In this document: positions 2 to 18,422 of the stretch, piece by piece
Numbering within the stretch: the first letter of the stretch is position 1
How the letters are laid out: each line of letters starts with the position of its first letter
Assembly (NCBI RefSeq): GCF_029854215.1
Contig: NZ_CP122961.1
Coordinates: 930,001-994,000, forward strand
Direction: 5' to 3'
DNA length: 64,000 nt
Source of the DNA: Halomonas alkaliantarctica
GTDB lineage: Bacteria > Pseudomonadota > Gammaproteobacteria > Pseudomonadales > Halomonadaceae
Translations under genes and position numbers: made by a program
Notes under the pieces: model-generated
Database searches by the model: none
Told to the model about the DNA's origin: nothing
The model's input: the letters and a program-made list of their open reading frames with translations, nothing else

Positions 2-1012
2 TCCGAGCTAGTGCGCCAATGGTTTGAGCGCTATCCGTCGATTCCCCTGGTCAATGCCTATGGCCCTGCTGAATGTGCCGATGACGTATCCCTGCACTTA
101 CTGCGTAGCGACGATGACGAATACGTAGCCGTGGTGCCGATCGGTAAGCCGGCCGATAACACTCAGCTAATCGTTCTCGACAACCAGCTGAACCCACTAC
201 TAACGGGGGTGAGTGGCGAGCTATATGTCGCCGGTGTTGGTGTTGGGCGGGGTTACCTGAACCAGCCGCAGCTGACGGCGGAGCGCTTCGTGCCCAACCC
301 GTTTTCCGATGTGCCTGGAGAGCGGCTTTACCGGACAGGCGATCTTGCCCGCTATCGCACCGATGGCGTGCTTGAATACATCGGACGCACCGATCAGCAG
401 GTCAAGATACGGGGCCAGCGCATTGAGCTGGGAGAGATAGCATCTCGGTTGGTGGAATTCGATGTTATACGAGAAGCGGTAGTGGTGGCCCAGAAAGGGC
501 CAGGAGGCGCCAGGTTAGTGGCTTATGCCGTCGCCCAGCCACATGAACTGATCGATACGGCCGAGCTACGCGAGCGTCTAGGGCAGGTATTGCCCGACTA
601 TATGGTGCCAAGTTTAGTGGTAATGCTCAATGCCTTACCACTAACGCCCAACGGCAAGGTGGATCGCAAAGCATTGCCCGAGCCCGACTTCGCCAGTAGC
701 GCGCAATATGAGCCACCCCAAGGTGAGACGGAAGAGACGCTAGCGGCGATTTGGAGCGAGGTGCTGGGTGTCGAGCGGGTAGGGCGTCACGACAACTTCT
801 TCGAGTTAGGGGGGCATTCGCTGTTGGCTCTTAAAGTGCAATCTAAAGTGGAAGAACATTTCGATATACGTCTCCCTCTCCGCAGCTATTTCGAACACGC
901 TACATTGGCCTCTATGGGTGAGCCCATTCAGGAAAGCAGGGGAGGTGCGAAAGAGAGCGAGAGCGCTCAACTCGAAAAGATGGCAGCGCTATTAGACGGT
1001 ATGGAGAGCTGA
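2..1012 (+). CDS. Non-ribosomal peptide synthetase, C-terminal fragment (A-T)
   Basis: This is the 3' end of an NRPS gene whose start lies before the window; the frame is open from base 2. It shows the second half of an adenylation domain (NAYGPAE core, GELYVAGVGVGRGY, YRTGDLARY, VKIRGQRIELGEI, NGKVDRKALP). A carrier domain follows with the pantetheine motif DNFFELGGHS. After the carrier there is only a tail of about 45 residues that may dock to the next protein. The visible specificity positions read A-D-D plus the invariant Lys, as in diaminobutyrate codes (DIWELTADDK); the first half of the code is outside the window, so Dab is a weak inference. The stop codon is one base before the next NRPS start. 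Confidence 0.93.
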   Translation, partial: SELVRQWFERYPSIPLVNAYGPAECADDVSLHLLRSDDDEYVAVVPIGKPADNTQLIVLDNQLNPLLTGVSGELYVAGVGVGRGYLNQPQLTAERFVPNPFSDVPGERLYRTGDLARYRTDGVLEYIGRTDQQVKIRGQRIELGEIASRLVEFDVIREAVVVAQKGPGGARLVAYAVAQPHELIDTAELRERLGQVLPDYMVPSLVVMLNALPLTPNGKVDRKALPEPDFASSAQYEPPQGETEETLAAIWSEVLGVERVGRHDNFFELGGHSLLALKVQSKVEEHFDIRLPLRSYFEHATLASMGEPIQESRGGAKESESAQLEKMAALLDGMES

Positions 1013-1013
1013 T

Positions 1014-4000
1014 ATGGAACTCAATAAACACACGATTGCTGAGCGCTTCGCACACCTGCCACGAGACAAGCAGAGCGTATTTCTTGAGGCATTAAGACAA
1101 CAGGGGATCGACTTTTCGCAGTTGCCAATCGTTAGGTCTAAGAACCAAGAGAGCAGAACACTCTCCTACGCCCAACTACGCCAGTGGTTTCTGTGGCGCA
1201 TGGATCCCCAAAGCAGCGCCTACCATATCACGGGTGCCGTGACCCTTAAGGGAACTCTTGACTCTGAAGCATTGCGGGGGAGCTTCGCGGCTTTAGTAGC
1301 ACGCCATGAGGCATTGCACACGGTGTTCCGTGACGATGGTGAAAGCGAGGCAGTGCAAGTGGTGCAGGCTGAAAATAACTTCGCATTGTCTGATATTGAC
1401 CTGAGCCATGTGCCGAAGGGTGAGCGAGAAGCGGCAATAGAGAGTCAGGTTACGCGGCTTTGCAATGACCCTTTCGATCTGGAGCAAGGGCCACTATTGC
1501 GGGTGGGACTATTGCGTTTAGCTGAAGAAGAGCAGCTGTTGGTGGTAGTAATGCACCACATTGTCTCCGATGGCTGGTCGATACAGTTGATCATCGATGA
1601 GTTTGCTGCGGACTACTCCGCTCGGGTAATGGGTGAGACGTGGCAGCCGCCAGCCTTGCCGATTCAGTACGCTGATTATGCACTCTGGCAGCGTCAATGG
1701 ATGGACGCGGGTGAGAAAGAGTGTCAACTCGCCTACTGGAAGGCGGAACTAGGTGACGAACACCCAGTGCTGCAACTGCCGACTGATCGCCCGCGTCGCA
1801 ACGATGGATATTATCACACTGCACGCCACCACATGGTACTTCCAGAACCGTTAGTGAGAGGATTGCGTCAACGAGTTCAGACTCAGGGAGCTACCCTGTT
1901 TATGACGCTACTGACGGGCTTACAGGTGTTGTTGTATCGATATACTGGGCAGGAAAATATTCGTATAGGCGTGCCAATCGCCAATCGGCATCGTACAGAA
2001 ACTCAAGGAGTGGTAGGGCTTTTCGTCAATACTCAGGTGATGTGCAATCAGTTAAATGGTCGCCTGAGTTTGGCCGAAGCGCTAGAGCAGGCAAAACGTG
2101 CGGCGCTTGGTGCTCAAGAACATCAAGATCTGCCTTTTGAGCAGTTAGTAGAAGCGCTGCAGCCGGAGCGCAGCCTGAGTCACACACCACTATTTCAAGT
2201 GATGTTCAATTATCAGCAGCAGGATCATAGTGCGCTGAAGACACTACCAGGATTGGAGTTGAGTACCAGGCCACTAGAAAAGAAAGAGGCAAAGTTCGAG
2301 CTGACGCTAAATGTGGAGGAGTGTAATGATGGTTACCTGAAGGCAAGTTTTATTTATGCTGAAGAGCTGTTTGATTCCATCACCATTGGACGACTGGCGC
2401 GGCATTATGTCGTTTTTTTAAAGGCGCTGGCAGAGATGCCAGAACGTGCGTTGAGTGATATCGAACTACTTGATAAGAATGAACAGCATCAATTGAAGAA
2501 ATGGGCAGGCAACACTCAACGATACCCCGATATTCTAGCTATTCATCATCTAATTGAACGCCAAGCAGCGGCAGCCTCCGATATCACAGCGCTAGTATTC
2601 GAAGATCAGTCACTCAGCTACGCCGAACTCAATACCCGCGCCAATCGCTTGGCGAACTATCTGATTGATTTAGGTGTAAAACCTGAAACCCGAGTAGGCA
2701 TCGCTATGGAGCGCTCAGTTGAGATGGTGGCGGGATTACTGGCTATTCTCAAGGCGGGTGGCACTTATGTGCCGCTGGATCCGGATTATCCCGCCGAGCG
2801 GCTGGATTATATGGTCGAAGACAGCGGCATAACGATGTTGGTCACACAGCAACACATACGTGAGACGCTGCCGGTAACTGATGGAGTGAGCATTATTGAG
2901 CTGGATCGATTAGATGTGGCACACCATGCCTCTACCAATCCGGAAGTGGTACTGCACAGCGAACATCTAGCCTACGTGATTTACACCTCAGGCTCTACTG
3001 GAAGACCTAAGGGGGTTGGGATCACGCATGGCGCTCTGAGCAATTACGTTGAAGGGGTGCTGGAGGTTTTAGCGTTATCTGATGATGCTCGTCGTTTTGC
3101 AATGGTGTCGACAATAGCCGCGGATTTAGGCCATACCATGCTATTCGGCGCCTTGTACAAGGGGCAAACTCTTCATTTGATTTCATCTGATAGCACGCTT
3201 GATCCAGACGCTTTTACTAGATACATGCATGATCATGAGATTGATGTCCTCAAAATAGTGCCTAGCCATTTGCGCGCACTAATGAGTGTAAAGAGTCCAT
3301 TAAATACATTGCCGAGAAGGTGTTTAGTTCTTGGGGGGGAGGTAAGCGATTGGTCTCTGGTTAAATGGATCTCAGACCTAAATCCATCTTGTCAAATTGT
3401 TAACCATTATGGCCCCACTGAGACAACTGTCGGAGCATTGACACAAAGATATGAAAGTGCTGATCAGCGAGCATCTACGCTACCGATTGGCGCCCCCTTG
3501 CGTAACATGCAAATTCGGGTACTTGACCCTTGGATGAACCTTGTGCCTCAAGGAGTGAACGGTGAACTTTATCTAGGGGGGGTGGGGTTGGCCCGCGGTT
3601 ATTTGGGGCGTCTTGATATGACGGCGGAACGATTTGTAGCTGACCCCTTTAGTGAAGGAGAACGTTTATATCGCACCGGTGATAGTGTGCGGCAATTGCC
3701 AGATGGTAGCTTGGAATTCCTTAGCCGTATGGATGATCAAGTTAAAATCCGCGGTTATCGGGTGGAGTTGGGGGAAGTTCAAGCGCAGTTGCTATTGCAA
3801 CTGGCGCTTCGCGAGGCGGTGGTGGTCTCCCAAGATGGAGCTAGTGGTTCGAGGCTGGTGGCTTATGTGGTTCCTCAGGCAGGCATTGAACTTGACGCCA
3901 CCTCAATACGCGAGCAGTTGAGCCAACATCTGCCAGACTATATGGTGCCGGGAGCCGTGGTCACGCTCGATGCACTGCCGCTGAATGCCAACGGTAAGGT

Positions 4001-7000
4001 AGACCGCAAGGCGCTGCCCGCACCGGATTTGGCCGGAAGCCAGCGGTACGAACCTCCGCAGGGCGAGGTAGAAGTCGTTCTCGCAAAAATCTGGTCCGAA
4101 ATATTTGGCGTGGAGCGGATTGGCCGTCACGACAACTTTTTTGAACTGGGTGGTCATTCCTTGCTAGCCCTGAAAGTGCTGGAGAAAATGCGGCAATGGG
4201 GCTTGACGGCGCAGGTACGCACGCTGTTCCAATCCCCTGAACTGACGGCCTTTGCCAAGGCATTAACTCAGGCATCAGAGCGGCAGGAAATCAGCATTCC
4301 GCCCAACCGGATTCCAGATGGCTGCTCGGCAATCCAGCCCGAGATGCTGCCTTTGATCGAACTCAATGGTGAAGAAATCAGCGCCATCGAAGCGGCAGTG
4401 CCCGGCGGCGCCCGCAATATTCAGGATATCTATCCCTTGGCACCGCTACAGGAGGGCATTCTTTTCCACCATCGGCTTCAGGAAGAGGGCGATGCCTATG
4501 TGACCCAACACTTGCTTGGCTTCGACAGCCGAGAGCAGCTGGAAGCCTTTACTGCCGGTTTTAACCAGCTGGTTACCCGCCACGATATCCTGCGTACCGC
4601 CGTGCTTTGGGAAGGATTACGAGAGCCGGTGCAGGTGGTATGTCGCCATGCTGAGCTTGAGCTTGAATGGTTAGACTTTGATTATGCTTCTTCGCTTAGT
4701 GTCGCTGAACAATTGAATGCTGAGGTGGATCCGGATCATCATCGCCTTGATGTGCGCCACGCACCGATGCTGCGGGCGGTAGCTGCATACGATGCCGGGC
4801 ATGGGCGATGGTTGCTACAGTTACCTAGCCACCATCTAGTCATGGATCACATCACCCTCGAACGACTGGTAGAAGAGATTGCCTTGATCCAGCAAGGCCG
4901 CGGAGATGAGCTACCTCAACCCCTTCCATTCCGCAATTTCGTTGCCCAGACCCGACTAGGGGTAAGCCAGGAAGAGCATGAAACCTTTTTCCGTGAGCGG
5001 TTGGGCGATATTGAAGAACCGACCGCGCCCTTCGGCCTGTTAGACGTTCGTGGCGATGGCAGCGATATAGAGGAAGTTCGCCTTCCTTTGCCAGCGGAGC
5101 TAGCCCAGCAAGTTCGGCAACAGGCACAGCGCCATGGTGTCAGCACGGCCAGCCTGTTCCATCTGGCCTGGGCGCTGGTGCTGAGTAAAACCACCGGACG
5201 GGACGACGTCGTGTTCGGCACCGTACTTTTCGGCCGCATGCAAGGCATCGAAGGTTCCGAGCGAGCTCTGGGGATGTTTATCAATACGCTTCCAGTGTGT
5301 GTCAAAACAGGTTCCCAGAGTGTTGATAAGTGTCTACGCCACACCCACGATACTCTTTCTGAGCTAATGCATCACGAACATGCCAGCCTCGGACTGGCGC
5401 AGCGATGCAGTGGGTTACCCGGTGGAGCTCCTCTATTCTCGAGCCTGTTGAACTATCGTTATAGCGTTCCCCAACAAGAGAAAAATCCAATCCATACCTG
5501 GGAGGGTATGGAGACATTGGGTGTCCAGGAACGTACTAACTACCCTATTGGCATGTCAGTGGATGACCAGGGGGAGGGCTTTCAGTTAGTAGGGCAGGTG
5601 AGCCGCACGATTGGTGCACAAAGGTTATGTGATTACATGGAAGCCGCTGTAGCGGGCATCGTGGCAAGCCTGCAGCATACACCGCAGCAAGCGATAAGTG
5701 AGATCAGCCTTCTAGGAGAAGAAGAACGGCGGTTGCTAAGCAAGTGGGGAGTGAATTCATACCAGCATCCCAATACTCAGCCAGTCCATCATTTGATCGA
5801 GCGCCATACCGAGGTAACGCCCGAGGCTACTGCATTAGTATTTGAAGATCAGTCACTCAGCTACGCCGAACTCAATACCCGTGCCAACCAATTGGCCCAC
5901 TATCTGATCGAACTAGGCGTAAAGCCCGAGACCCGGGTGGGTATCGCCATAGAACGCTCCATCGAAATGGTGGTGGGGCTGCTGGCTACTCTCAAGGCGG
6001 GGGGCGCCTATGTGCCACTGGATCCCGAGTATCCTTCAGAGCGGCTGGCCTTCATCGCCGAAGATAGTGGCATTGAACTGCTGCTGACCCAGCGCCACTT
6101 GCACGAGTCATTGCCGGTAGCGGATGGACTCAGCGTTATCGAATTGGATCGGCTGGACGTGGCACATCACGCTGCTACCAATCCAGCGGTGGCGCTGCAT
6201 GGCGAGCACCTCGCCTACGTGATTTACACCTCGGGTTCCACCGGGCGGCCCAAGGGCGCTGCCATCCGCCATGATGCCTTGACCAACTGCATGGTCTGGA
6301 TGCAGGAGACCTACCAGCTCACCGATACCGATGCCGTACTGCACAAGGCGCCATTCGGGTTCGACGTGTCGGTATGGGAGATTTTCTGGCCGCTGAGTGT
6401 TGGGGCCCGTTTGGTAATCGCCCAGCCGGGTGACCACCGGGATCCCGCACGCATCATTGAGCTGATTCAGCGGCACGGAGTCACCACGCTCAATTTTGTG
6501 CCCTCAATGCTCAAGGCCTTTCTGGCCTATCCCGATGTTAAAACCAAGACGCGGCTCAAGCATATTATGTGCGGTGGTGAGGCCGTTCCAGCGACGCTAC
6601 AGCAAGATGTGGCTGAATGTCTTGATGGTGCCCACCTGCATGATCTGTATGGCCCCACCGAAACTACTATTCATGTCACTCACTGGTGGTGTCGTGATGA
6701 CGCTCACCGCCAGATTCCCATTGGGCGATCCATTAGTGGTACCCGCACCTACGTCTTGGATGGTGATCTTAACTTGGCACCGCCAGGAGTCGCTGGCGAA
6801 CTCTATCTCGGCGGGGTAAGCCTGGCCCGTGGCTATCTCAATCGCAGTGATCTAACGTCGGAGCGCTTTATCGCTGATCCGTTCGCAGCAGGGGAACGTC
6901 TCTACCGCACCGGCGACTTGGTGCGCTGGCGGGAGGATGGCCAGCTTGAGTACCTGGGGCGTCTTGATCACCAGGTGAAGATTCGCGGCCTGCGCATTGA

Positions 7001-7586
7001 GCTTGGCGAGATCGAAGCCGAACTGCTCTCTCAGCCGGAGGTTCGGGAAGCGGTGGTGGTCGCTCAAGAAGGTCCCTATGGTTCCAGGCTGGTGGCCTAT
7101 GTGGTTTCCGAAGCTGACAGTGAACTCAATAGCACCTCACTACGCGAAGCACTGGGGCAACGACTACCAGATTATATGGTGCCGGGCGTCATGGTCACGC
7201 TCGATGCTCTGCCGCTGAATGCCAACGGCAAAGTCGACCGCAAGGCCCTGCCCGAGCCGGAGTTGACCAGTGGTTTGCAGTGCGAACCGCCTCAAGGTGA
7301 AACGGAAGAGGCGCTGGCGACGATTTGGAGCGAGGTGCTGGGTGTCAAGCGAGTAGGGCGTCACGACAACTTCTTCGAGTTAGGGGGGCATTCTCTGCTT
7401 GCTGTGCAGATGGTGGCACATGTTCAAGCTGATATGCAGGTTGAGCTTCATATATCTGAAGTATTCAAGAATCCGCTTCTACACGCTTTAGCAGAATGTA
7501 TTGTCGGGTTAAACCACGGGCACTCCTTAGAGCAGTCGCTCTCTGACATTGATTCCTTCATCGACAGCATGGATACCGTTCAATGA
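1014..7586 (+). CDS. Non-ribosomal peptide synthetase, two modules (C-A-T-C*-A-T)
   Basis: A 2190-residue bimodular siderophore synthetase. Domain order: C domain (HHIVSDG near residue 181), A domain (YTSGSTGRPKG near 657), carrier (GGHS near 1048), a second C-type domain (HHRLQEEGD near 1152; HHLVMDH near 1273), A domain (YTSGSTG near 1737) and carrier (Ser near 2127). Read by eye, the first A domain has code DLTKVGHVGK, one change from the Asp code DLTKVGHIGK. The second reads DVWNMGLIHK, between Thr (DFWNIGMVHK) and hydroxyornithine (DMENLGLINK). The second C domain matches the dual epimerization/condensation signature HH[I/L]xxxxGD except for Arg at position 3, so the Asp is probably converted to D. 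An acidic C-terminal tail may dock to the next synthetase, whose ATG overlaps this stop. Confidence 0.95.
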   Translation: MELNKHTIAERFAHLPRDKQSVFLEALRQQGIDFSQLPIVRSKNQESRTLSYAQLRQWFLWRMDPQSSAYHITGAVTLKGTLDSEALRGSFAALVARHEALHTVFRDDGESEAVQVVQAENNFALSDIDLSHVPKGEREAAIESQVTRLCNDPFDLEQGPLLRVGLLRLAEEEQLLVVVMHHIVSDGWSIQLIIDEFAADYSARVMGETWQPPALPIQYADYALWQRQWMDAGEKECQLAYWKAELGDEHPVLQLPTDRPRRNDGYYHTARHHMVLPEPLVRGLRQRVQTQGATLFMTLLTGLQVLLYRYTGQENIRIGVPIANRHRTETQGVVGLFVNTQVMCNQLNGRLSLAEALEQAKRAALGAQEHQDLPFEQLVEALQPERSLSHTPLFQVMFNYQQQDHSALKTLPGLELSTRPLEKKEAKFELTLNVEECNDGYLKASFIYAEELFDSITIGRLARHYVVFLKALAEMPERALSDIELLDKNEQHQLKKWAGNTQRYPDILAIHHLIERQAAAASDITALVFEDQSLSYAELNTRANRLANYLIDLGVKPETRVGIAMERSVEMVAGLLAILKAGGTYVPLDPDYPAERLDYMVEDSGITMLVTQQHIRETLPVTDGVSIIELDRLDVAHHASTNPEVVLHSEHLAYVIYTSGSTGRPKGVGITHGALSNYVEGVLEVLALSDDARRFAMVSTIAADLGHTMLFGALYKGQTLHLISSDSTLDPDAFTRYMHDHEIDVLKIVPSHLRALMSVKSPLNTLPRRCLVLGGEVSDWSLVKWISDLNPSCQIVNHYGPTETTVGALTQRYESADQRASTLPIGAPLRNMQIRVLDPWMNLVPQGVNGELYLGGVGLARGYLGRLDMTAERFVADPFSEGERLYRTGDSVRQLPDGSLEFLSRMDDQVKIRGYRVELGEVQAQLLLQLALREAVVVSQDGASGSRLVAYVVPQAGIELDATSIREQLSQHLPDYMVPGAVVTLDALPLNANGKVDRKALPAPDLAGSQRYEPPQGEVEVVLAKIWSEIFGVERIGRHDNFFELGGHSLLALKVLEKMRQWGLTAQVRTLFQSPELTAFAKALTQASERQEISIPPNRIPDGCSAIQPEMLPLIELNGEEISAIEAAVPGGARNIQDIYPLAPLQEGILFHHRLQEEGDAYVTQHLLGFDSREQLEAFTAGFNQLVTRHDILRTAVLWEGLREPVQVVCRHAELELEWLDFDYASSLSVAEQLNAEVDPDHHRLDVRHAPMLRAVAAYDAGHGRWLLQLPSHHLVMDHITLERLVEEIALIQQGRGDELPQPLPFRNFVAQTRLGVSQEEHETFFRERLGDIEEPTAPFGLLDVRGDGSDIEEVRLPLPAELAQQVRQQAQRHGVSTASLFHLAWALVLSKTTGRDDVVFGTVLFGRMQGIEGSERALGMFINTLPVCVKTGSQSVDKCLRHTHDTLSELMHHEHASLGLAQRCSGLPGGAPLFSSLLNYRYSVPQQEKNPIHTWEGMETLGVQERTNYPIGMSVDDQGEGFQLVGQVSRTIGAQRLCDYMEAAVAGIVASLQHTPQQAISEISLLGEEERRLLSKWGVNSYQHPNTQPVHHLIERHTEVTPEATALVFEDQSLSYAELNTRANQLAHYLIELGVKPETRVGIAIERSIEMVVGLLATLKAGGAYVPLDPEYPSERLAFIAEDSGIELLLTQRHLHESLPVADGLSVIELDRLDVAHHAATNPAVALHGEHLAYVIYTSGSTGRPKGAAIRHDALTNCMVWMQETYQLTDTDAVLHKAPFGFDVSVWEIFWPLSVGARLVIAQPGDHRDPARIIELIQRHGVTTLNFVPSMLKAFLAYPDVKTKTRLKHIMCGGEAVPATLQQDVAECLDGAHLHDLYGPTETTIHVTHWWCRDDAHRQIPIGRSISGTRTYVLDGDLNLAPPGVAGELYLGGVSLARGYLNRSDLTSERFIADPFAAGERLYRTGDLVRWREDGQLEYLGRLDHQVKIRGLRIELGEIEAELLSQPEVREAVVVAQEGPYGSRLVAYVVSEADSELNSTSLREALGQRLPDYMVPGVMVTLDALPLNANGKVDRKALPEPELTSGLQCEPPQGETEEALATIWSEVLGVKRVGRHDNFFELGGHSLLAVQMVAHVQADMQVELHISEVFKNPLLHALAECIVGLNHGHSLEQSLSDIDSFIDSMDTVQ

Positions 7587-10500
7587 GTAATATCGATACC
7601 CGTCGTATTGCGGAGCGCTTTGCCGGATTGCCTAGTGAGCAGCGCCGTGTGGTTTACGACAAGATTCGTACTCAAGGATTGGGCATTGGCCAATTTCCTA
7701 TTCTTAGGCGCCCTGTATCACAACAGACAATTTGCTCACCCTCTTATGCCCAACTTCGCCAGTGGTTCCTGTGGCGCTTGGATCCCCAGAGCAGCGCTTA
7801 CCATATTAGTGGTGCTCTGTCCCTTGAGGGGGCGCTGGATACTGAAGCACTGTGGGGTAGCTTCACCGCCTTGATTTCTCGTCATGAGGCATTGCGCACG
7901 GTGTTCCGTGACGACGGCGAGGGAGAGATGATGCAAGTGGTTCAGGCCGAGAACAACTTTGCATGGTGCGAAGTTGAGCTAAACCATATGCCGAAGGATG
8001 AGCGCAAAGCAGTATTAGAAGATCAGATTGATCGGCTTTGTAATGACCCTTTCGATCTGGAACAGGGGCCGCTGTTGCGTGTAGGGCTACTACGTTTAGC
8101 AGAAGAGAAGCACCTTTTGGTGGTGGTAATGCACCACATCATCTCCGATGGCTGGTCGATGCAGTTGATCATCGATGAGTTTGCTGCGGACTACTCCGCT
8201 CGAGTTACAGGAGGAGCCTGGCAGCCACCCGCTTTGCCGATTCAATATGCCGATTATGCACTATGGCAGCGTCAGTGGATGGAGGCGGGTGAAAAGGAGC
8301 GTCAACTGGCCTATTGGCAGGCGGAGCTGGGAGATGAACACCCGATATTGCAACTGCCGACCGACCGCCCACGCCGTAACGATGGCCACTATCACGCTGC
8401 ACGCCACGCAATAGTGCTTCCTGCCTCGGTAGTGAGCAAATTGCGTCAGCAGGCCCAGGCGAAGGGCGCCACCCTGTTTATGACGCTACTGACAGGTTTC
8501 CAGTCACTGCTATATCGCTATACGGGAGAAGAAGATATCCGGGTCGGAGTTCCGATCGCCAACCGCCACCGCACGGAAACCCAAGGCGTGGTGGGCTTCT
8601 TCGTTAATACGCAAGTACTCCGTAACCCGTTGAATGGTCGCCTGAGCTTGGCTAAGGCGCTGGAGCAGGGAAAACGTGCGGCGCTGGGCGCGCAAGAGCA
8701 TCAGGATCTTCCTTTTGAACAGTTAGTGGAGGCGCTGCAGCCGGATCGTAATCTGAGCCAGACGCCGCTATTCCAGGTGATGTTCAACCACCAGTGGCAG
8801 GATCATGGCGAGTTGCCGACTCTGCCAGGACTGAACCTAAGCAGTTGGCCACTAGATAAGGGCGAGGCGCAGTTCGAGCTGACGCTGGATGTGGTTGAGC
8901 GCGCGGATGATTTCCTGAAGGCAAGTTTTGTTTATGCAAAAGAGTTGTTCGATTCAATTACCATTGAGCGTCTAGCGCAGCACTATACGGCTATGCTACA
9001 GGCGCTGGTAGAGATGCCGGAGTGTGCGCTGGGCGATATTGAATTGCTAGATAAAGGCGAACAACGTCAATTACAGGAGTGGGGGGAAAGCTCTCAACGG
9101 TATCCCGACGCATCATCTGTTCACCACCTGATCGAGCTGCAGGCTGCTGCAACCCCAGAGACCACGGCACTAGTATTTGAAGAGCAGTCACTTAGCTACA
9201 CCGAACTTAACATCCGAGCTAATCGCTTGGCCCACTACCTGATCGGCCTAGGCGTAAAACCTGAGACGCGGGTGGGTATCGCTGTTGAGCGCTCCATCGA
9301 GATGGTGGTGGGGCTGCTGGCGATCCTCAAGGCGGGGGGCGCCTACGTGCCGTTGGATCCGGATTACCCTGCCGAGCGACTGGCCTATATGGTCAAGGAC
9401 AGCGGCATCGAGCTTCTGCTTACCCAGCAGCATCTTCGCGATACGCTGCCGGTGGCCGATGGGCTGAACGTCATTGAGTTGGATCAGTTGAATATTGCTC
9501 ACCATGCGCCGACCAATCCGAACGTGGCCCTGCACGGCGAAAATCTTGCTTATGTGATCTACACCTCAGGCTCCACCGGGCGGCCCAAGGGCGCAGCCAA
9601 CCGCCACCAAGCGCTGATCAATCGCCTACAGTGGATGCAGAAGGTCTACGGTCTAACGTCCGACGATGCGGTGCTGCAGAAGACGCCGTTCAGCTTCGAC
9701 GTCTCGGTGTGGGAGTTCTTCTGGCCGCTGATGCAGGGGGCACAACTGGTGATGGCGCCACCAGGTGCCCATCGTGAGCCGACGCTGTTGGTCGAATTAA
9801 TACGCACTCATAAGATTACCACGCTGCACTTCGTGCCGTCGATGCTGCAGGCCTTCCTGGCTCATGGTGAGGTAAAAACCTGTACCAGTCTGATGCGACT
9901 GGTATGCAGCGGCGAAGCGCTGCCGGCGGAGCTGCAGAATCAGATATTTGCTCGCTTGCCTCATACGGCGCTCTATAACCTCTACGGCCCCACCGAAGCG
10001 GCGATTGATGTTACCCACTGGACGTGCCAAGACGATGGGCGCAATCAGGTAGCGATTGGCCAACCGATCACCGGTATCCGCACCTACGTACTGGACGGCG
10101 ATCTCAACTTGGCGCCTCCCGGGGTCGCTGGCGAACTCTATCTTGGTGGCGTGGGCTTGGCGCGGGGCTATCTGCACCGCCCTGATCTGACCGCAGAACG
10201 CTTTATCACCGATCCATTTATGCAAGGCGAACGCCTCTACCGCACCGGCGACCTGGTGCGCTGGCGGGAGGATGGCCAGCTCGAGTACCTGGGCCGGCTC
10301 GATCATCAAGTGAAGATCCGCGGCCTGCGTATCGAGCTTGGCGAGATCGAAGCTGAACTGCTCTCTCAGCCGGAGGTTCGCGAGGCGGTAGTGGTGGCAC
10401 AAGAAAGTTATAGTGGCTCGAGGCTGGTGGCGTATGTGGTTCCCCAAGCCGACAGTGAACTCGATACCAGCTCACTGCGAGAAGCGCTGGGGCAACGACT

Positions 10501-13500
10501 GCCAGACTATATGGTACCGGGCGTCGTGGTCATCCTCGATACCTTGCCGTTGAATGCCAACGGCAAGGTAGACCGCAAGGCCCTGCCCGAGCCGGAGTCG
10601 ACCAGTGGCTCGCAGTACGAGCTGCCTCAAGGCGAGGTGGAAGAGGCGTTAGCGGAAGTCTGGTCAGAAGTATTGGGCGTTGAGCGAGTCGGCCGTCACG
10701 ACAACTTCTTTGAGCTGGGTGGTCATTCGCTGTTGGCTCTAAAAGTGCTGGAGCGAATGCGGCACCGGGGGCTGACAGCACAGGTACGAACCCTGTTCCA
10801 ACACCCAGAACTGGCAGCCTTTGCCGAGGCGATTGCACAGAAGCCAGAGCAGCAGGAACTCATCATTCCTCCTAACCGGATCCCACACGATTGTCAGGCT
10901 CTCCAGCCTGATATGCTGACACTGATAGAGCTTAATGCTGAAGAGCTTCGTGAGATTGAAGCGGCAGTGCCCGGCGGTGCTAGCAATATTCAGGATATCT
11001 ACCCACTGGCACCGTTGCAGGAGGGCATCCTTTTTCATCATCGGCTACAGCAGGAAGGAGATGCCTATGTAACTCAACACTTACTTGGCTTTGATTGCCA
11101 GGAGCGGTTGGAAGCATTCATTGTCTGTTTCAATAAACTAATTGCCCGCCATGACATCCTGCGTACTGCTGTGCTTTGGGAAGGACTCCGCGAACCGGTG
11201 CAGGTGGTGTATCGACATGCCATGCTGGATATCGAATGGCCGACCGCGCCAGATGCGGCCACCGACGGTGTGGCCGAATGGTTATACATCCAGGTGAATC
11301 CTGAGCACCATCGCCTCGATGTACGCCAAGCACCTATGATTCGGGCGCTGGCTGCATACGATGCTGAGCAGGGGCACTGGTTGCTACAGTTACCTAGCCA
11401 CCATCTAGTCATGGATCACACCACCCTTGAGCTACTGGTGGAAGAAATTGCCCTGATCCAGCAAGGCCACGATGACGAACTGCCCAAGCCGATCCCATTT
11501 CGCAACTTCGTGGCACAGGCGCATCTGGGAGTAAGCTCAGAAGAGCATGAAGCCTTCTTCCGCGAGCGATTGGGCGGCATAAAGGAACCTACAGCACCCT
11601 TCGGGCTGCTGGATGTACGCGGCGACGGTAGCGATATCGAAGAAATGCAGCTGCCGCTAGAGCCAGAGTTGGCTCAACAGGTACGGCAGCAGGCGCAGTA
11701 CCATGGTGTCAGTACGGCAAGCCTGTTCCACTTGGCCTGGGCCTTGGTGCTAAGCAAAACTACCGGGCGGGACGACGTGGTATTTGGCACTGTTTTGTTC
11801 GGCCGTATGCAGGGCACTGAAGGGGTTGAGCGGGCATTGGGGATGTTTATCAACACCTTGCCTGTGCGCATCAAAATAGGGTCTAAAACCGTTGATAAGT
11901 GCTTGTGGCAGACTCACAGCGCCCTTAGTGCGTTGTTGCACCACGAGCATGCCAGTCTCGGTCTAGCACAGCGCTGCAGTGGGCTGCCCAGGGGAATGCC
12001 ACTATTTACAAGCTTGCTGAACTATCGCTATAGCACACCCCTGACAGAAAGTAGACCCACTAATGTATGGAAAGGCATGGAGTCTCTGGGGGGGCAGGAG
12101 CGTACTAACTACCCCATTGGAATGTCGGTAGATGATCTGGGAGAAGGTTTTCGACTGGTGGGGCAAGTGAATCATGTAATCGGCGCTAAGCGGCTGTGTG
12201 AATACATGCGTTTGGCCGTAGCTGGTATCGCTGCAAGCCTGCAAACTGCATCACAGCAATCACTAAGTGAGATTAGTCTGCTAGGAAAAAACGAACTGCA
12301 ACTGTTGAGTGAATGGGGAGAGAACCCAGATCAGCACCCTGATGCTCCACCTATTTATCAATTGATTGAGCACCAAGCAGCGTCAACTCCAGAAGCCACG
12401 GCCCTCATCTTTGAAGACCAGCATCTTAGCTACGCCGAACTCAATACCCGTGCCAACCGCCTAGCCCATTATCTGATTGGGTTGGGCGTAAAACCCGAGA
12501 CTCGGGTGGGCATCGGTATGGAGCGCTCCCTTGAGATGGTGGTGGGGCTACTGGCTATTCTCAAGGCGGGGGGCGCTTATGTGCCGCTGGATGCGGATTA
12601 CCCCTCTGAGCGGTTGGCTTATATTGCTGAAGATAGTGGCATTGAGCTGCTACTGATCCAACAACATCTTCACGATACGTTGCCGGTAGTTGAAAACCTT
12701 AGCGTCATCGAGCTGGATCAGTTAGACGTTGATCACCATGCATCGTCCAACCCGGGTGTGGCGTTGCACGGTGAACATCTCGCCTACGTTATCTACACCT
12801 CGGGCTCAACTGGGAAGCCTAAAGGCGCCGCCATCCGCCATGATGCCTTAACCAACTGCATGGTCTGGATGCAGGAGACCTACCAGCTTACCCACACCGA
12901 TGCTGTACTGCATAAGGCGCCGTTCGGGTTCGACGTCTCGGTATGGGAGATTTTTTGGCCGCTGAGTGTTGGGGCACGTTTGGTGATCGCCCAGCCAGGC
13001 GACCATCGCGATCCAGAGCGCATTATTGAGCTGATTCAGCAGCACGGCGTCACCACACTCAACTTTGTGCCCTCAATGCTCAAGGCCTTCCTGGCCTATC
13101 CCGATGTTAAGGCCAAGACGCGGCTCAAGCATATTATGTGCGGTGGAGAGGCCGTTCCAGCTACGTTACAACAGGACGTAGCCGAGTGCCTTGATGGCGC
13201 CAGCCTTCACGATCTCTATGGCCCTACCGAAACCACCATTCATGTCACTCATTGGTGGTGTCGTGAAGATGCTCAACGCCAGATACCCATTGGGAGGCCT
13301 ATCAGTGGCACCCGTACCTACGTATTGGATGGTGAATTGAATCTAGTACCACAGGGCGTAGCAGGAGAGTTATACCTGGGTGGGGTGAGTTTGGCGCGGG
13401 GATACCTTAACCGTAGTGATCTCACGGCGGAGCGTTTTATCGCTGACCCGTTCAAAGAGGGTGAACGCCTCTACCGTACGGGCGATCTGGTGCGCTGGCG

Positions 13501-14950
13501 GGAGGATGGCCAGCTCGAGTACCTGGGCCGCCTCGATCAACAGGTGAAAATTCGTGGCCTGCGGATCGAACTTGGCGAGATCGAAGCTGAACTGCTCTCT
13601 CAGCCGGAGGTTCGCGAGGCGGTAGTGGTGGCACAAGAAAGTTTTAGTGGCTCGAGGCTGGTGGCGTATGTGGTTCCCCAAGCCGACAGTGAACTCGATA
13701 CCAGCTCACTGCGAGAAGCGCTGGGGCAACGACTGCCAGACTATATGGTACCGGGCGTCGTGGTCATCCTCGATACACTGCCGCTGAATGCCAACGGCAA
13801 GGTAGATCGCAAAGCACTGCCTGAACCTAATTTTGAGGAAAAACGCGAGTATGTGACGCCCTCTACACCAGAAGCCCAACAGCTTGCTGAGATATGGCAA
13901 GAAGTACTGGGTGTTGAGCGGGTCGGCGAGACCGACAATTTCTTCGAGCTGGGTGGAGACTCTCTGTTGAGTCTACAAGTAATGAGCCATGTACAGGCTC
14001 TAGAGTTGCCGCGGCCTGAGTTTAAACTGTTCGACCTAATGCAGAAGCCGACTATCGCTGATCTGCTGGGAGTAAGGAATAAACCTGGGGCGCTGCCAAA
14101 AGGGGCTGTGATGCTCAATGGCGAGTGTCGCAGTCAGGCGCCGCTGTTCTGCATTCATGCCGTAATGGGAACGGTTTTTGACTATCAGCCGTTAGCCCGA
14201 CGCTTGCAGGAAGTATGTACGGTTTACGGCCTACCTTGCCGAATGTTGACCGACCCACAGCATCGAGATACCTCACTTGAAACAATGGCTGATAACTATG
14301 TGGAGACGATACGTCTCATACAACCAGTGGGGCCTTATCGGCTATTGGGATGGTCTCTTGGTGGAGCATTGGCAGCACTGATCGCGGCTCGACTTGAAGG
14401 GCTGGGGCAAGATGTGAGTCAACTGGCTTTGATAGATCCCTATATACCTGGCGGTGAACTGCACCGCGAGGATAGCTGGCAGCGAGATTTTGTAAACTTT
14501 GCATCAGTGATACTGCCAGGTGTTTCGCTTGAAGAGCTCAATGGTAATGAGGAGAGCAACGAAGAAGAGAGTGAGGAAGAGGTTGCTATTAAGTTGTCGA
14601 GGTTAATGGCGTCCTTCGATGCATATGGTCGTGAGGGTTACGCAGCACTGGGTAGCGAGGAGCTTGCTCGAATATTCTGCGTGGCTCGGCACTTGAAGCA
14701 TCTTTCACTACAGCTTGATGCCTTGCCAGCGGTGATTTGTGAAGTGGATTGCTGGTGGGCGACGGGAAGAGATTGGAAAGAGCGTCAGGCGCTAGCGAAC
14801 CAGTTAAAGCGAATCCCGAGAACCTCAATTGAGACTCCTCATGACCACTTCTCAATCATTGGGGATGAGGATCTGATTTCTCAGGTAGTAAAGCGGATAC
14901 GAATAAGTACTAAACGATATTTTGACGAAGCAATGCAGGCGCTATTTTGA
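7583..14950 (+). CDS. Non-ribosomal peptide synthetase, two modules plus thioesterase (C-A-T-C*-A-T-TE)
   Basis: A 2455-residue terminal synthetase. It has a C domain (HHIISDG near residue 184), an A domain with code DVWHVSLIDK, one change from the serine code DVWHLSLIDK, and a carrier (GGHS). A dual E/C-like domain follows (HHRLQQEGD near 1152, HHLVMDH near 1273), then an A domain with code DVWNMGLIHK as in the preceding protein, and a carrier with GGDS near 2126. The C-terminal thioesterase has GWSLGG with the nucleophile near 2257 and a likely catalytic His in PHDHFS near 2420. The thioesterase makes this the chain-releasing protein. The ATG overlaps the upstream stop (ATGA), so translation is coupled. 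The final A domain shares a nearly identical 206-bp tract with the first A domain of this gene. Confidence 0.95.
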   Translation: MSNIDTRRIAERFAGLPSEQRRVVYDKIRTQGLGIGQFPILRRPVSQQTICSPSYAQLRQWFLWRLDPQSSAYHISGALSLEGALDTEALWGSFTALISRHEALRTVFRDDGEGEMMQVVQAENNFAWCEVELNHMPKDERKAVLEDQIDRLCNDPFDLEQGPLLRVGLLRLAEEKHLLVVVMHHIISDGWSMQLIIDEFAADYSARVTGGAWQPPALPIQYADYALWQRQWMEAGEKERQLAYWQAELGDEHPILQLPTDRPRRNDGHYHAARHAIVLPASVVSKLRQQAQAKGATLFMTLLTGFQSLLYRYTGEEDIRVGVPIANRHRTETQGVVGFFVNTQVLRNPLNGRLSLAKALEQGKRAALGAQEHQDLPFEQLVEALQPDRNLSQTPLFQVMFNHQWQDHGELPTLPGLNLSSWPLDKGEAQFELTLDVVERADDFLKASFVYAKELFDSITIERLAQHYTAMLQALVEMPECALGDIELLDKGEQRQLQEWGESSQRYPDASSVHHLIELQAAATPETTALVFEEQSLSYTELNIRANRLAHYLIGLGVKPETRVGIAVERSIEMVVGLLAILKAGGAYVPLDPDYPAERLAYMVKDSGIELLLTQQHLRDTLPVADGLNVIELDQLNIAHHAPTNPNVALHGENLAYVIYTSGSTGRPKGAANRHQALINRLQWMQKVYGLTSDDAVLQKTPFSFDVSVWEFFWPLMQGAQLVMAPPGAHREPTLLVELIRTHKITTLHFVPSMLQAFLAHGEVKTCTSLMRLVCSGEALPAELQNQIFARLPHTALYNLYGPTEAAIDVTHWTCQDDGRNQVAIGQPITGIRTYVLDGDLNLAPPGVAGELYLGGVGLARGYLHRPDLTAERFITDPFMQGERLYRTGDLVRWREDGQLEYLGRLDHQVKIRGLRIELGEIEAELLSQPEVREAVVVAQESYSGSRLVAYVVPQADSELDTSSLREALGQRLPDYMVPGVVVILDTLPLNANGKVDRKALPEPESTSGSQYELPQGEVEEALAEVWSEVLGVERVGRHDNFFELGGHSLLALKVLERMRHRGLTAQVRTLFQHPELAAFAEAIAQKPEQQELIIPPNRIPHDCQALQPDMLTLIELNAEELREIEAAVPGGASNIQDIYPLAPLQEGILFHHRLQQEGDAYVTQHLLGFDCQERLEAFIVCFNKLIARHDILRTAVLWEGLREPVQVVYRHAMLDIEWPTAPDAATDGVAEWLYIQVNPEHHRLDVRQAPMIRALAAYDAEQGHWLLQLPSHHLVMDHTTLELLVEEIALIQQGHDDELPKPIPFRNFVAQAHLGVSSEEHEAFFRERLGGIKEPTAPFGLLDVRGDGSDIEEMQLPLEPELAQQVRQQAQYHGVSTASLFHLAWALVLSKTTGRDDVVFGTVLFGRMQGTEGVERALGMFINTLPVRIKIGSKTVDKCLWQTHSALSALLHHEHASLGLAQRCSGLPRGMPLFTSLLNYRYSTPLTESRPTNVWKGMESLGGQERTNYPIGMSVDDLGEGFRLVGQVNHVIGAKRLCEYMRLAVAGIAASLQTASQQSLSEISLLGKNELQLLSEWGENPDQHPDAPPIYQLIEHQAASTPEATALIFEDQHLSYAELNTRANRLAHYLIGLGVKPETRVGIGMERSLEMVVGLLAILKAGGAYVPLDADYPSERLAYIAEDSGIELLLIQQHLHDTLPVVENLSVIELDQLDVDHHASSNPGVALHGEHLAYVIYTSGSTGKPKGAAIRHDALTNCMVWMQETYQLTHTDAVLHKAPFGFDVSVWEIFWPLSVGARLVIAQPGDHRDPERIIELIQQHGVTTLNFVPSMLKAFLAYPDVKAKTRLKHIMCGGEAVPATLQQDVAECLDGASLHDLYGPTETTIHVTHWWCREDAQRQIPIGRPISGTRTYVLDGELNLVPQGVAGELYLGGVSLARGYLNRSDLTAERFIADPFKEGERLYRTGDLVRWREDGQLEYLGRLDQQVKIRGLRIELGEIEAELLSQPEVREAVVVAQESFSGSRLVAYVVPQADSELDTSSLREALGQRLPDYMVPGVVVILDTLPLNANGKVDRKALPEPNFEEKREYVTPSTPEAQQLAEIWQEVLGVERVGETDNFFELGGDSLLSLQVMSHVQALELPRPEFKLFDLMQKPTIADLLGVRNKPGALPKGAVMLNGECRSQAPLFCIHAVMGTVFDYQPLARRLQEVCTVYGLPCRMLTDPQHRDTSLETMADNYVETIRLIQPVGPYRLLGWSLGGALAALIAARLEGLGQDVSQLALIDPYIPGGELHREDSWQRDFVNFASVILPGVSLEELNGNEESNEEESEEEVAIKLSRLMASFDAYGREGYAALGSEELARIFCVARHLKHLSLQLDALPAVICEVDCWWATGRDWKERQALANQLKRIPRTSIETPHDHFSIIGDEDLISQVVKRIRISTKRYFDEAMQALF
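10337..10542 (+). repeat. Copy 1 of near-identical 206-bp adenylation-domain tract
   Basis: Within the C-terminal subdomain of the serine-type A domain. It matches 13571-13776 with a single mismatch (tat versus ttt codon), while the flanking DNA diverges normally. This points to recent recombination or gene conversion between modules of the same gene. Confidence 0.9.
13571..13776 (+). repeat. Copy 2 of near-identical 206-bp adenylation-domain tract
   Basis: The partner of 10337-10542, in the last A domain. It runs from the ELGEIEAELLSQPEVREAVV region to just before the A10 motif. The specificity pocket lies outside the tract, so the exchange would not have changed substrate choice. Confidence 0.9.
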
Positions 14951-15210: not shown

Positions 15211-17385
15211 ATGTTCAAGGGAAAATACTCGCTGTCCTGTCAGAGCGGGTTGTTGGTTGCCACATTGGTTGCGGTGCCAGTTTATTCAGCAGCTCAGGAG
15301 GAAGAATCGATCTCGCAATTGGAGAGCCTAACGGTAACCGCAGAAAGGGTAGGGGCGCAGGGCCCGGATGTGGGCTATCAGGCGGAACGTAGCCTAACGG
15401 CAACCAAAACAGATACCCCACTGTCCGAGACACCACGCTCCATTTCGGTGGTAACGAGGAATCAGATTGAGGATCAGGGCGCACAAACGCTGGAAGATAT
15501 TCTGGAGTACGTACCAGGGGTTAACAGGTACAGCTCCCCTGGCGGCGAGGGGCTGGCTGGCGATATTTTCTACATTCGTGGCATGAACCAGCGTGATTAT
15601 GGTTATGGCATCTATCGTGATGGCCTACGTGTTCAGTCCAATGCCTACGCCACATCTGCAGAGCCTTATGGTCTAGAGAGGGTCGAAGTGCTCAAGGGGC
15701 CGACTTCGATTCTGTACGGAGAAAATGTGCCCGGTGGAATAGTGAACTTGGTCAGTAAACGCCCTACTTATGAACGTCAGAGAGAGGTCAATCTTAGCTA
15801 TGGAACCCATGATCGCAGGCAGTTTTCCTTTGATGTATCGGGCGCTCTGAATGAAGATGGCAGCGTCCGTGGTCGAATGGTGTCCTTGGTTCGCGATGCC
15901 GACACGCAAATCGATAGCATGGGGGATGACAGAATCTACTTTGCCCCTTCTTTGGCCATCGACCTTAGTGACAGGGACACCCTGACACTGCTGGGCCAAT
16001 ATCAAAAGGACAGCACCGAGATGCAATTGGGGCTGCCGGCGTCGGGCACACTGCTTGACAATCCAGGCGGTAAATTGGCTACCGATACCAACTTGGGGCA
16101 CCCCGACTGGGATGGTTTTGACCGAGAATTCTGGACATTGGGTTACGAATACGAGCACCGCTTTGATAATGAGTGGACGTTTCGCCAAAACGGGCGGTAT
16201 ACACGATCTCTGGTAGATCGGCAGGAAACTTGGTTGCAGTTCGTTGATGCAGGTTACGGCTCTAATATTGGCGCCTATAATCTTGACCGGGCCAATGAGT
16301 CTAGAATCTACTCTATTGATAACCAAGTGGTCGGCAACGTGACCACCGGAGCACTCGACAACACTCTGCTGTTCGGCGCCAGCTTCGATAGGACGTCATT
16401 CGTACAGAGCCAGTATGCTAGTGACATCGCCAGTGGTGAATTCTATCTTATTGATATTTTTGACCCTCAGTATAGCAGCGAGCCGCAAACCTCAAGTCTC
16501 TCTAGTGATGGCGATCTAAAGCAAAATTTGGCCGGAACTTATGCTCAATGGCAGGGCAAAGTCGGCGGATTGATTGCATTGGTGGGCGGTCGTTACGACT
16601 GGGCAGATAGTGAATACGATGATTATACCGCAGCCAATGACGATACTCAGCGCTCCGACGAAGCGTTCAGTTGGCAAACCGGATTGATGTATCAGTTTGC
16701 TAACGGCGTCTCTCCTTACGTTAGCTACTCTACTACTTTCGTACCGGTTCAGTTGAACACTGAAGATAACTTCAACCCCATCACTGGCGACCAGGTAGAG
16801 CTAGGAGTGAAGTATGAGCCTGAAGGCTGGAACACCCAGGTGACGGTTTCTGCTTATGACATCACTAAGCAAGATGACGTTAGCTACGACGGCAGCTCCG
16901 GTGACTATCGCCAGATTGGTGAGACACAATCTCAGGGTTTAGAAGTAGAGGTTAAGAGCGATATTAACGAAAGTCTGAGCCTTACTGCTGCCTATAGTTA
17001 TATCGATGCCAGGATTGTCGAAGATGCCGGTTCGCGTTTAGAAGATGAGCAAATTACCGGCATTCCGCGCCATCAGGCTTCTGTCTGGGCTAATTACACC
17101 TTCCGTCAAGGGGCGCTGAACGGCCTGCAAACGGGTCTCGGTGTCCGTTACTTGGGCAAATCCTACTCCTATCCGCCAGAGAGTCTTGATTATGGCACAC
17201 TCGAGGTAGGTAGCGAGACGCTAGTCGATGCGGCAATCGGTTATGATTTCGGCAATAACTGGAGTGCTAAGCTCAACGCCAAGAACCTCTTTGATCGCGA
17301 ATATGTTGCTCGCTGTAACAACGGAGGGCGTTGCTATTGGGGGGCCGAACGCACCGTTCTGGGTACCGTGTCCTACAAGTGGTAG
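15211..17385 (+). CDS. TonB-dependent siderophore receptor
   Basis: A 724-residue outer-membrane ferric-siderophore receptor. It has a signal peptide ending near AAQ, a plug domain (TPRSISVVTRNQIEDQGAQ, RGMNQRDYGYGIYRDGLR, ERVEVLKGPTSILYGENVPGG), then a 22-strand type barrel ending in an aromatic residue (VSYKW). The LESLTVTAE stretch near the N-terminus is a TonB-box candidate. The plug motifs place it in the FhuE/FpvA/FoxA-like hydroxamate receptor group. It has no extra N-terminal signalling domain, so it probably does not work through a sigma/anti-sigma relay. It follows the NRPS genes on the same strand, preceded by a Fur-like box, and is the best candidate importer of their product. Confidence 0.93.
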   Translation: MFKGKYSLSCQSGLLVATLVAVPVYSAAQEEESISQLESLTVTAERVGAQGPDVGYQAERSLTATKTDTPLSETPRSISVVTRNQIEDQGAQTLEDILEYVPGVNRYSSPGGEGLAGDIFYIRGMNQRDYGYGIYRDGLRVQSNAYATSAEPYGLERVEVLKGPTSILYGENVPGGIVNLVSKRPTYERQREVNLSYGTHDRRQFSFDVSGALNEDGSVRGRMVSLVRDADTQIDSMGDDRIYFAPSLAIDLSDRDTLTLLGQYQKDSTEMQLGLPASGTLLDNPGGKLATDTNLGHPDWDGFDREFWTLGYEYEHRFDNEWTFRQNGRYTRSLVDRQETWLQFVDAGYGSNIGAYNLDRANESRIYSIDNQVVGNVTTGALDNTLLFGASFDRTSFVQSQYASDIASGEFYLIDIFDPQYSSEPQTSSLSSDGDLKQNLAGTYAQWQGKVGGLIALVGGRYDWADSEYDDYTAANDDTQRSDEAFSWQTGLMYQFANGVSPYVSYSTTFVPVQLNTEDNFNPITGDQVELGVKYEPEGWNTQVTVSAYDITKQDDVSYDGSSGDYRQIGETQSQGLEVEVKSDINESLSLTAAYSYIDARIVEDAGSRLEDEQITGIPRHQASVWANYTFRQGALNGLQTGLGVRYLGKSYSYPPESLDYGTLEVGSETLVDAAIGYDFGNNWSAKLNAKNLFDREYVARCNNGGRCYWGAERTVLGTVSYKW

Positions 17386-18379: not shown

Positions 18380-18422
18380 GATCACGCCTGTGTTGAGTGG
18401 ATGAACAGCTTCGTAATGAATA

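Follow-up and report, generated by a model that had tools for sequence, protein, structure and literature searches.

The 64,000-nucleotide stretch of the Halomonas alkaliantarctica genome analysed here (the window; G000:C1:930001-994000, on a single contig of 4,228,891 bases) opens inside a set of non-ribosomal peptide synthetase (NRPS) genes predicted to make an acylated siderophore. Judged by its gene content, it carries the downstream portion of an acyl-siderophore cluster that is complete in the genome but cut by the window edge. The first open reading frame (ORF), open at its 5' end (2..1012, forward strand), is the tail of NRPS1: 336 C-terminal amino acids (aa) in which Pfam finds the later part of an adenylation (A) domain, assigned to diaminobutyrate (Dab), and its carrier (T) domain. 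The whole gene (G000:C1:921122-931012, forward strand) starts 8.9 kb upstream of the window edge and encodes 3296 aa, which Pfam and code alignment resolve as FAAL-ACP / C-A(Asp)-T-E / C-A(Dab)-T, that is, a fatty acyl-AMP ligase with acyl carrier protein followed by condensation (C), adenylation, carrier and epimerisation (E) domains. For its first domain, the matching solved structures include the fatty acyl-AMP ligases 3pbk and 8hd4. NRPS2 (1014..7586, forward; 2190 aa), assigned to residues 3 and 4, reads C-A(Asp)-T / dual C/E-A-T, and NRPS3 (7583..14950, forward; 2455 aa), assigned to residues 5 and 6 and to release, reads C-A(Ser)-T / dual C/E-A-T-TE. In NRPS2, Pfam detects C, A and T domains twice each, all far over the cut-off, and the same in NRPS3 plus a thioesterase (TE). 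The latter, a type I domain of PF00975 at the C-terminal end (14141..14698, forward; NRPS3 aa 2187-2372), agrees with the thioesterase release proposed in the initial annotation of this DNA, which was made from the sequence alone.

The specificity codes obtained by alignment are DLTKIGHVG (Asp) and DIWQLTADD (Dab) in NRPS1 and, in order, DLTKVGHVG, DVWNMGLIH, DVWHVSLID (Ser) and DVWNMGLIH in NRPS2 and NRPS3. The initial annotation had read the last four by eye as DLTKVGHVGK, DVWNMGLIHK, DVWHVSLIDK and DVWNMGLIHK, and the first nine letters of each are the same on alignment; its partial ADDK for the cut-off module is likewise the correct end of the full Dab code. The tenth residue (K) lies outside the mapping of the script, but the translations do contain the motif NGKVDRKALP. 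The motif HHxxxxxGD, which we take to be the signature of dual C/E domains, occurs once in NRPS2, once in NRPS3 and not in NRPS1. C3, the condensation domain of the Asp3 module (1146..2495, forward; Pfam aa 45-494), is of the LCL type and does not have it. The two copies are in C4 (4389..5693, forward; HHRLQEEGD ... HHLVMDH) and C6 (10958..12262, forward; HHRLQQEGD ... HHLVMDH), predicted to set D-Asp3 and D-Ser5, respectively, and their position there supports the D-Asp and D-Ser that had been proposed. Since FAAL-ACP and an Asp-E module precede Dab, the chain would open with a fatty acid and D-Asp, with Dab as residue 2. The earlier backbone, which began at Dab, was thus right in placing Dab before Asp and wrong about the start.

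Taken together, the domain order, codes and accessory genes make acyl-D-(beta-OH)Asp-L-Dab-D-Asp-L-fOHOrn-D-Ser-L-fOHOrn (fOHOrn, N5-formyl-N5-hydroxyornithine) the probable product, and domain logic predicts D-Asp1, L-Dab2, D-Asp3, L-Orn4, D-Ser5 and L-Orn6. In this assembly line, FAAL-ACP would load a fatty acid onto NRPS1, which would add Asp1, epimerised by the E domain and beta-hydroxylated by a stand-alone TauD dioxygenase on a carrier with the motif GGDSI, and then L-Dab. NRPS2 would add Asp3, made D by the following dual C/E domain, and then fOHOrn. NRPS3 would add D-Ser and the second fOHOrn before the thioesterase releases the chain. Iron would be held by beta-OH-Asp1 and two hydroxamates, leaving Asp3 as an extra, unhydroxylated acid. 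Pfam searches upstream of the window, a check that the initial annotation had suggested, found the starter, the hydroxylase and MbtH, with TauD at G000:C1:920006-921076 and MbtH at G000:C1:918374-918664, both in the same direction as NRPS1.

To place the cluster among its relatives, a query taken from the end of the final module (close of the A domain, T and TE) was searched against the family and matched 105 out of 275 genomes (E <= 1e-20). The clusters of 20 of the 105 were fetched and read with the same scripts, giving 21 clusters with the window's own (G000); weaker or contig-broken matches, such as those in G221, G151, G267 and G222, were left unannotated. Genomes named in the comparison are G206 (Vreelandella glaciei DD39), G023 (Halomonas salipaludis WRN001), G201 (H. 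campaniensis SK03), G207 (Halomonas sp. CUBES01), G010 (Chromohalobacter marismortui) and G027 (Billgrantia aerodenitrificans).

The 21 clusters contain 33 Asp modules: 17 are of the Asp1 type, 13 lie directly after a fused TauD domain and three carry neither mark of hydroxylation. A GGDSI carrier is in view in 16 of the 17 Asp1-type modules, the carrier of the remaining one (G201) being on the next ORF. The modules lacking both marks are the Asp3 modules of G000, G206 and G023; in ours, the carrier motif is GGHSL and no fused TauD precedes it. A stand-alone TauD is in view in 16 out of 21 clusters, all of which have an Asp1-type module. Among the five others, G024 and G232, whose upstream genes are in view, have no Asp1-type module; of the cut clusters, G242 and G265 show none and G258 has one. 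Both the stand-alone TauD and the GGDSI Asp carrier are present in our cluster. A GGDSI rule for stand-alone TauD enzymes is applied in PMC10391617, which also notes a link of the motif to epimerisation. GGDSI cannot be solely an epimerisation mark, since the GGDSI Asp module of G259 has no E domain behind it. Two observations weigh against the overall reading: GGDSI is common before E domains and is therefore not a clean mark of hydroxylation, and a comparison of the TauD protein with solved structures gave no characterised aspartyl hydroxylase, nor did it reach any NCBIfam cut-off, so that its role is assigned from context. Tistrella mobilis was among the matches in a plasmid search with the TauD protein (57% identity, covering 66% of the query).

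Because Asp1 bears GGDSI and Asp3 bears neither mark, Asp1 is likely the beta-OH-Asp ligand, while Asp3 probably stays unhydroxylated and outside the iron site. The initial annotation had made the in-window Asp, together with two hydroxyornithine-type X residues, the iron ligands; the X residues would fit that role, but this Asp, with both hydroxylase marks absent, probably does not. A chain that starts at or near Dab and binds iron through the in-window Asp is very improbable: a TauD enzyme does lie close by, but NRPS1 has FAAL-ACP and a complete Asp-E module before Dab, the GGDSI carrier is on the first Asp, and marinobactin-type clusters open in the same way. Hydroxylation of Asp3 as well, by the same TauD, would give four bidentate groups (two beta-OH-Asp and two hydroxamates) and more than one binding mode. 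We consider it unlikely, although the hydroxylase is present and the Asp1 and Asp3 cores fall in one clade, given the GGHSL carrier and the lack of a preceding fused TauD, a state unique to three of the 33 Asp modules. Three bidentate groups fill iron's six sites and would already suffice. On the other side, lipid siderophores with two beta-OH-Asp residues do exist (PMC7100376).

The assignment of residues 4 and 6 to hydroxyornithine starts from two enzymes encoded downstream on the reverse strand: a PvdA-type L-ornithine N5-monooxygenase (20435..21763; PDB 3s5w, E 1.2e-135) and a PvdF-type N5-hydroxyornithine formyltransferase (19415..20260; PDB 6cul, residues 1-271, E 1.8e-112). Both had been named in the initial annotation, whose siderophore with Dab before Asp and two hydroxyornithine-type X residues is supported. 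PvdA is in view in 19 out of 21 clusters. Sixteen of these have no DGE-type Orn code, and DVWNMGLIH is present in 16 out of 16, including G265, which shows its last module only. The three PvdA clusters with DGE codes are G010, G258 and G259; in the other two clusters, G213 and G247, PvdA is not in view and all Orn codes are of the DGE type. Among the codes given for modified Orn in PMC12283262 is DVWNIGLIHK, which differs by one letter.

The code itself points elsewhere. In a tree of the A-domain cores (163 A domains), all 32 cores with DVWNMGLIH fall into a single clade (0.926) whose sister group is made up of 40 Ser cores (0.991). They are separate from the DGE-type Orn cores of marinobactin-type clusters, which counts against reading the residue as Orn. 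Because DVWNMGLIH groups with Ser cores and not with DGE Orn cores, the Orn assignment is drawn from genetics, not from the code; by sequence comparison, the DVWNMGLIH pocket is derived from a Ser pocket and is distinct from the DGE pocket of the marinobactin type. Codes of the form DFWN[IV]GMVH, which we take to specify Thr, occur beside DVWNMGLIH and resemble it, so X could in principle be Thr or another small residue, which would leave the siderophore without hydroxamates and give a calculated C12:0 mass of 818.414. This resemblance and the grouping with Ser cores speak for Thr; however, the Thr-coded cores fall outside the clade of Ser and DVWNMGLIH cores, no other hydroxyornithine candidate is seen in 16 out of 19 PvdA-bearing clusters, PvdA and PvdF are in the cluster, and the adjoining receptor is of the marinobactin type, with FhuA and FoxA as its nearest NCBIfam models. 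Thr at these positions is therefore quite improbable. Position, PvdA/PvdF and family genetics fit acylated hydroxyornithine at residues 4 and 6, with a code that differs from that of marinobactin-type clusters.

The A domain of the Asp3 module is, from several comparisons, a mosaic in which aa 668-917 of NRPS2 (3015..3764, forward; from just past motif A3 to A8) are of the Asp type, while the flanks are of the Ser/Gly/Orn type. Sliding identity along the module reaches 63-90% to the cluster's own Ser module in C-domain windows, falls to 22-28% within aa 691-840 and there rises to 58-67% for Asp1. Among 119 A domains, the two flanks have median identities of 75-78% and 66-69% to the Ser/Gly/Gln/Orn classes, whereas the core has 27-34% to these classes and 64% to Asp1. 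The 116 informative residues run as 34 scaffold-type, then 50 Asp-type with 6 scaffold-type, then 25 scaffold-type with 1 Asp-type. The best Asp-type segment, aa 668-917, was equalled by none of 10,000 shuffles, and its borders were identical in domain numbering when each of the three Asp3 genomes was analysed alone. The core tree groups the Asp3 core with Asp (43 tips, support 1.0), and the tree of N flanks, from the same number of domains, places Asp3 inside the Ser/Gly/Gln/Orn/Thr scaffold clade (0.887-0.911). With an early cut, at motif A5, the C flank remains grouped with Asp (0.995); the informative-residue analysis puts the 3' junction later, at aa 917/919. Counting against the reading, the three Asp3 domains are split in the N-flank tree (75 tips descend from their common ancestor, support 0.635), and this split may reflect further exchange.

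Asp3 would thus have arisen by exchange of an A-core segment within a house module of the Ser/Gly/Orn class. No close donor was found among the 119 A domains of the sampled clusters, the best core outside the three Asp3 modules being 66% identical. A recent copy of the same cluster's Asp1 was considered and rejected: in the list of best matches, the sampled Asp1-type cores stand at much the same distance from the Asp3 core (64-66% identity). Exchange of A cores is known in nature from the wollamide/desotamide NRPS (PMC9205934), where, as in Asp3, the binding core was exchanged and the C-A interface and C-terminal part were kept. That swap runs from motif A2 to A5/A6 and turned Orn into Gly (PMC9205934), whereas the one described here runs from just past A3 to A8 and gained Asp in a module of the Ser/Gly/Orn class. 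The junctions at aa 664/668 and 917/919 are evidently exchange points that evolution has tolerated, useful for NRPS engineering.

The initial annotation named no siderophore with this residue order, but that of marinobactin and formomarinobactin (Asp-Dab-Ser-OHOrn-Ser-OHOrn, with PvdF/TauD/FAAL logic for formomarinobactin; PMC13037486) agrees at residues 1, 2, 4, 5 and 6, the difference being Asp instead of Ser at residue 3. The formomarinobactin cluster (fmb, Pseudomonas graminis/P. lutea group; PMC13037486) shares the FAAL starter, the Asp-Dab-X-OHOrn-Ser-OHOrn order, PvdA-type and PvdF-type enzymes, TauD, MbtH, an ECF sigma factor, the thioesterase and a dedicated TonB receptor. It differs in having two synthetases rather than three (PMC13037486); our cluster, in turn, has other transport genes (FhuD, FhuB, SIP and b561), and a scan of 23 proteins of the cluster region found no Dab transaminase.

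Codes and E-domain places were compared not with fmb itself but with marinobactin-type clusters from an order-wide draw of 390 genomes (G635 and G458) and from within the family (G192 and G012, on broken contigs). Where complete, they read FAAL-Asp(GGDSI)-E-Dab / Ser-E-Orn-Ser-Orn-E, sharing with ours the beginning, the receptor type and five of six residues; the order genomes with weaker matches that were read (G459, G581 and G417) have different clusters. A formyltransferase is present here, in contrast to the GNAT acetyltransferase of marinobactin (PMC13037486). The Orn code is DGEAYAGVT there and DVWNMGLIH here, and the Dab code is DIWELTADD there and DIWQLTADD here. In G458, G635 and G192, E domains follow Ser3 and the last Orn and no dual motif is present, whereas ours has dual C4 and C6 and no E domain after residue 6, so that the predicted D-Ser5/L-Orn6 is the reverse of the L-Ser5/D-Orn6 predicted for these three. 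C4 and C6 have no close counterpart in the marinobactin-type clusters (best 28-32%). G012 and the window are 88-89% identical over FAAL, C1 and A1 and 45-56% from E through Dab, a fall along NRPS1 from which we conclude that the two lineages probably recombined at the siderophore locus. It seems that other modules were used to rebuild the marinobactin constitution, those for residues 4-6 not being marinobactin modules. Potashchelins, from the related host Halomonas sp. MG34 (PMC7100376), share FAAL, TauD, MbtH, type II thioesterase, phosphopantetheinyl transferase (PPTase) and dual C domains, but are nonapeptides without Dab that contain two beta-OH-Asp and cyclic OH-Orn and are made with one fused and one stand-alone TauD.

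The TonB-dependent siderophore receptor adjoining the synthetases (15211..17385, forward) scores over the cut-off of TIGR01783 and below those of its nearest models, FhuA/FoxA. By pairwise identity, it is of the marinobactin type: it shares 62% with the receptor of G458, 55% with G635, 59-63% with G192 and, on broken contigs, 71-73% with G012, 59-61% with G219 and 91-93% with G206 and G023, and at most 39% with the receptors that occupy the usual position next to 16 further clusters of the family. The type occurs in 14 out of 275 family genomes at E <= 1e-150, our own included. Its link to this particular product is loosened by several copies elsewhere. In G269, whose cluster encodes a different backbone, a 94% copy lies immediately before the sigma gene; in G206, the usual position is taken by a 28% receptor in addition to the 93% copy; and G201, G208, G060 and G270 have 57-59% copies, with no synthetase within 20 kb in the two inspected (G201 and G208). 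Further copies are a 71% one in G143, with no synthetase in 40 kb, a partial 62% match in G058 and one on a 5-kb contig in G245. Behind the receptor lie, on the reverse strand, a FhuD-like periplasmic binding protein (17432..18394; ORF open to 18655, homology beginning at about 18385-18394) and the relic of a second TonB receptor (18438..19175, within a 250-aa Plug ORF at 18423-19175), which keeps only the first 246 aa and is 83% identical to an intact receptor at the same place in G256. By this comparison, the relic is the scar of a receptor replacement. The window's pair of receptor and binding protein stands upstream of the sigma gene in G206 (L042/L043) and, beside the cluster for a different backbone, in G269 (L138), and such pairs seem to move as a cassette.

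Overall, the genes fit a lipopeptide of the formomarinobactin type that has Asp in place of Ser as its third residue and would be taken up by the marinobactin-type receptor, and we hold with reasonable confidence that this Halomonas/Vreelandella-type host makes such an acyl siderophore with a grafted Asp3. Masses were calculated as the linear sum minus one water. The calculation gives 904.4622 for formomarinobactin D (904.4655 observed; PMC13037486) and 932.4935 for marinobactin A (932 reported; PMC13037486). For the predicted product in its C12:0 form, the calculated [M+H]+ is 932.4571, or 948.4520 with Asp3 hydroxylated; other acyl tails give 904.426 (C10:0), 930.442 (C12:1) and 960.488 (C14:0). 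The cluster is thereby tied to a definite, mass-testable structure. The nominal mass of 932 is shared with marinobactin A and formomarinobactin F, which are only 0.036 Da apart from it, and low-resolution mass spectrometry would misname the product as one of them.

The compound could already have been described under another name, for example among the sodachelins, in which case only the genes would be new. This is rather unlikely. Sodachelins and halochelins are named in PMC10291192, and several Halomonas lipid siderophores come from non-open journals; yet no Asp-Dab-Asp siderophore was found in the excerpts of open-licence literature, and halochelins are titled cysteine-, phenylalanine- and proline-containing in a reference of PMC10291192. 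The known compositions of aquachelin and loihichelin also do not fit the predicted product. Siderophores of the marinobactin kind are known; the Asp3 form is a new one among them, well supported by the genes, and its mosaic enzyme is instructive.

The remaining genes of the cluster bear on its transport, control and precursor supply. After pvdA come a putative exporter with the membrane and ATPase parts of an ABC transporter (21888..23540, forward), a cytochrome b561-family membrane protein (23526..24149, reverse), a siderophore-interacting (SIP) flavoprotein (24142..25086, reverse) and a FhuB-like double FecCD inner-membrane importer (25264..27273, forward; two Pfam stretches). Upstream, Pfam identifies an ECF sigma factor (G000:C1:917230-917835) and, between MbtH and TauD, a type II thioesterase followed by a PPTase, all in the same direction as NRPS1. 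The ORFs listed for MbtH (3374-3664) and the type II thioesterase (3534-4394) in L009 overlap, and the 246 aa of many homologues suggest a later start for the thioesterase. A PvdS-type box (TAAAT-N16-CGT, which we assume as consensus) starts 41-45 bases before mbtH in 16 out of 16 clusters with that stretch in view, clusters that are related by descent and hence not 16 independent events. In neither the window nor L009 do such boxes outnumber the chance expectation, and they are informative only by this fixed place. mbtH to NRPS3 probably form one iron-starvation operon. Counting against the overall reading, a search of the window and L009 gave no Fur box within three mismatches of a 19-base consensus.

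The ectoine pathway may supply the Dab, as a genome-wide search, which covered the EctB family only, gave one match over the family cut-off to this Dab-forming enzyme, 1.1 Mb away. A pyridoxal phosphate-dependent decarboxylase (29500-30933) was examined as a Dab transaminase and rejected, being a glutamate decarboxylase. It scores over the cut-off of TIGR01788 and adjoins an Asp-Al_Ex-type permease, the two (together 27609-30933) being perhaps an acid-stress pair outside the siderophore cluster. No removal of the acyl tail is predicted, because the genome has no match to PF01804, the family searched for a PvdQ-type acylase.

Relatives of the whole cluster combine conserved ends with variable synthetases. 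Where in view, the outer genes (sigma factor, type II thioesterase, PPTase and TauD at one end, PvdA and the ABC transporter at the other) are mostly 80-98% identical, with lower values in G010, G023, G024 and G027. The window backbone was found in only two of the 20 relatives, G206 and G023. Among the best 120 of 7984 protein matches to NRPS2, the only partners of its own size and high identity are P0002 itself (seven member sequences) and P0010, an H. salipaludis protein (88%, 2192 aa). A pattern scan of named genomes gave nine loci, six of them in the family, the patterns being too specific for Marinobacter or Pseudomonas. Since G206 and G023 have a GNAT gene (PF13523) and no PvdF in the stretches read, they probably make the N-acetyl form. 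The 20 related clusters (L042-L081) have similar outer genes and very different module orders, with four to nine residues in the whole ones and Asp-Dab pairs at the chain start or near its end. In G201 (L049:14314-17774), a PvdF formyltransferase is accompanied by a 370-aa ORF in the position that the GNAT acetyltransferase takes in other clusters, and the predicted product is an unusual acyl-Orn-Asp-Dab-Orn tetrapeptide. G219 (L076-L077) reads Asp-Dab-Gly-Orn-Ser-Orn; its Orn cores carry DVWNMGLIH, yet it ends in an E domain and lacks the dual motif, and it looks intermediate between the house and marinobactin lineages.

If its assignment is confirmed, DVWNMGLIHK would be a Ser-derived hydroxyornithine code that is open to misreading as Thr or Ser. 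The three Asp3 clusters and their Ser3 and Gly3 relatives offer a natural experiment on a one-residue change, the receptor type being otherwise kept. At a broader scale, and with the chances slightly below even, the Halomonadaceae may hold a siderophore locus with fixed ends and exchangeable insides, in which A cores and entire modules are exchanged on a shared scaffold, together with the receptors, and in which the marinobactin constitution would have been rebuilt from house modules that acquired hydroxyornithine specificity anew out of a Ser pocket, with reversed stereochemistry at residues 5 and 6, while the marinobactin receptor was kept.

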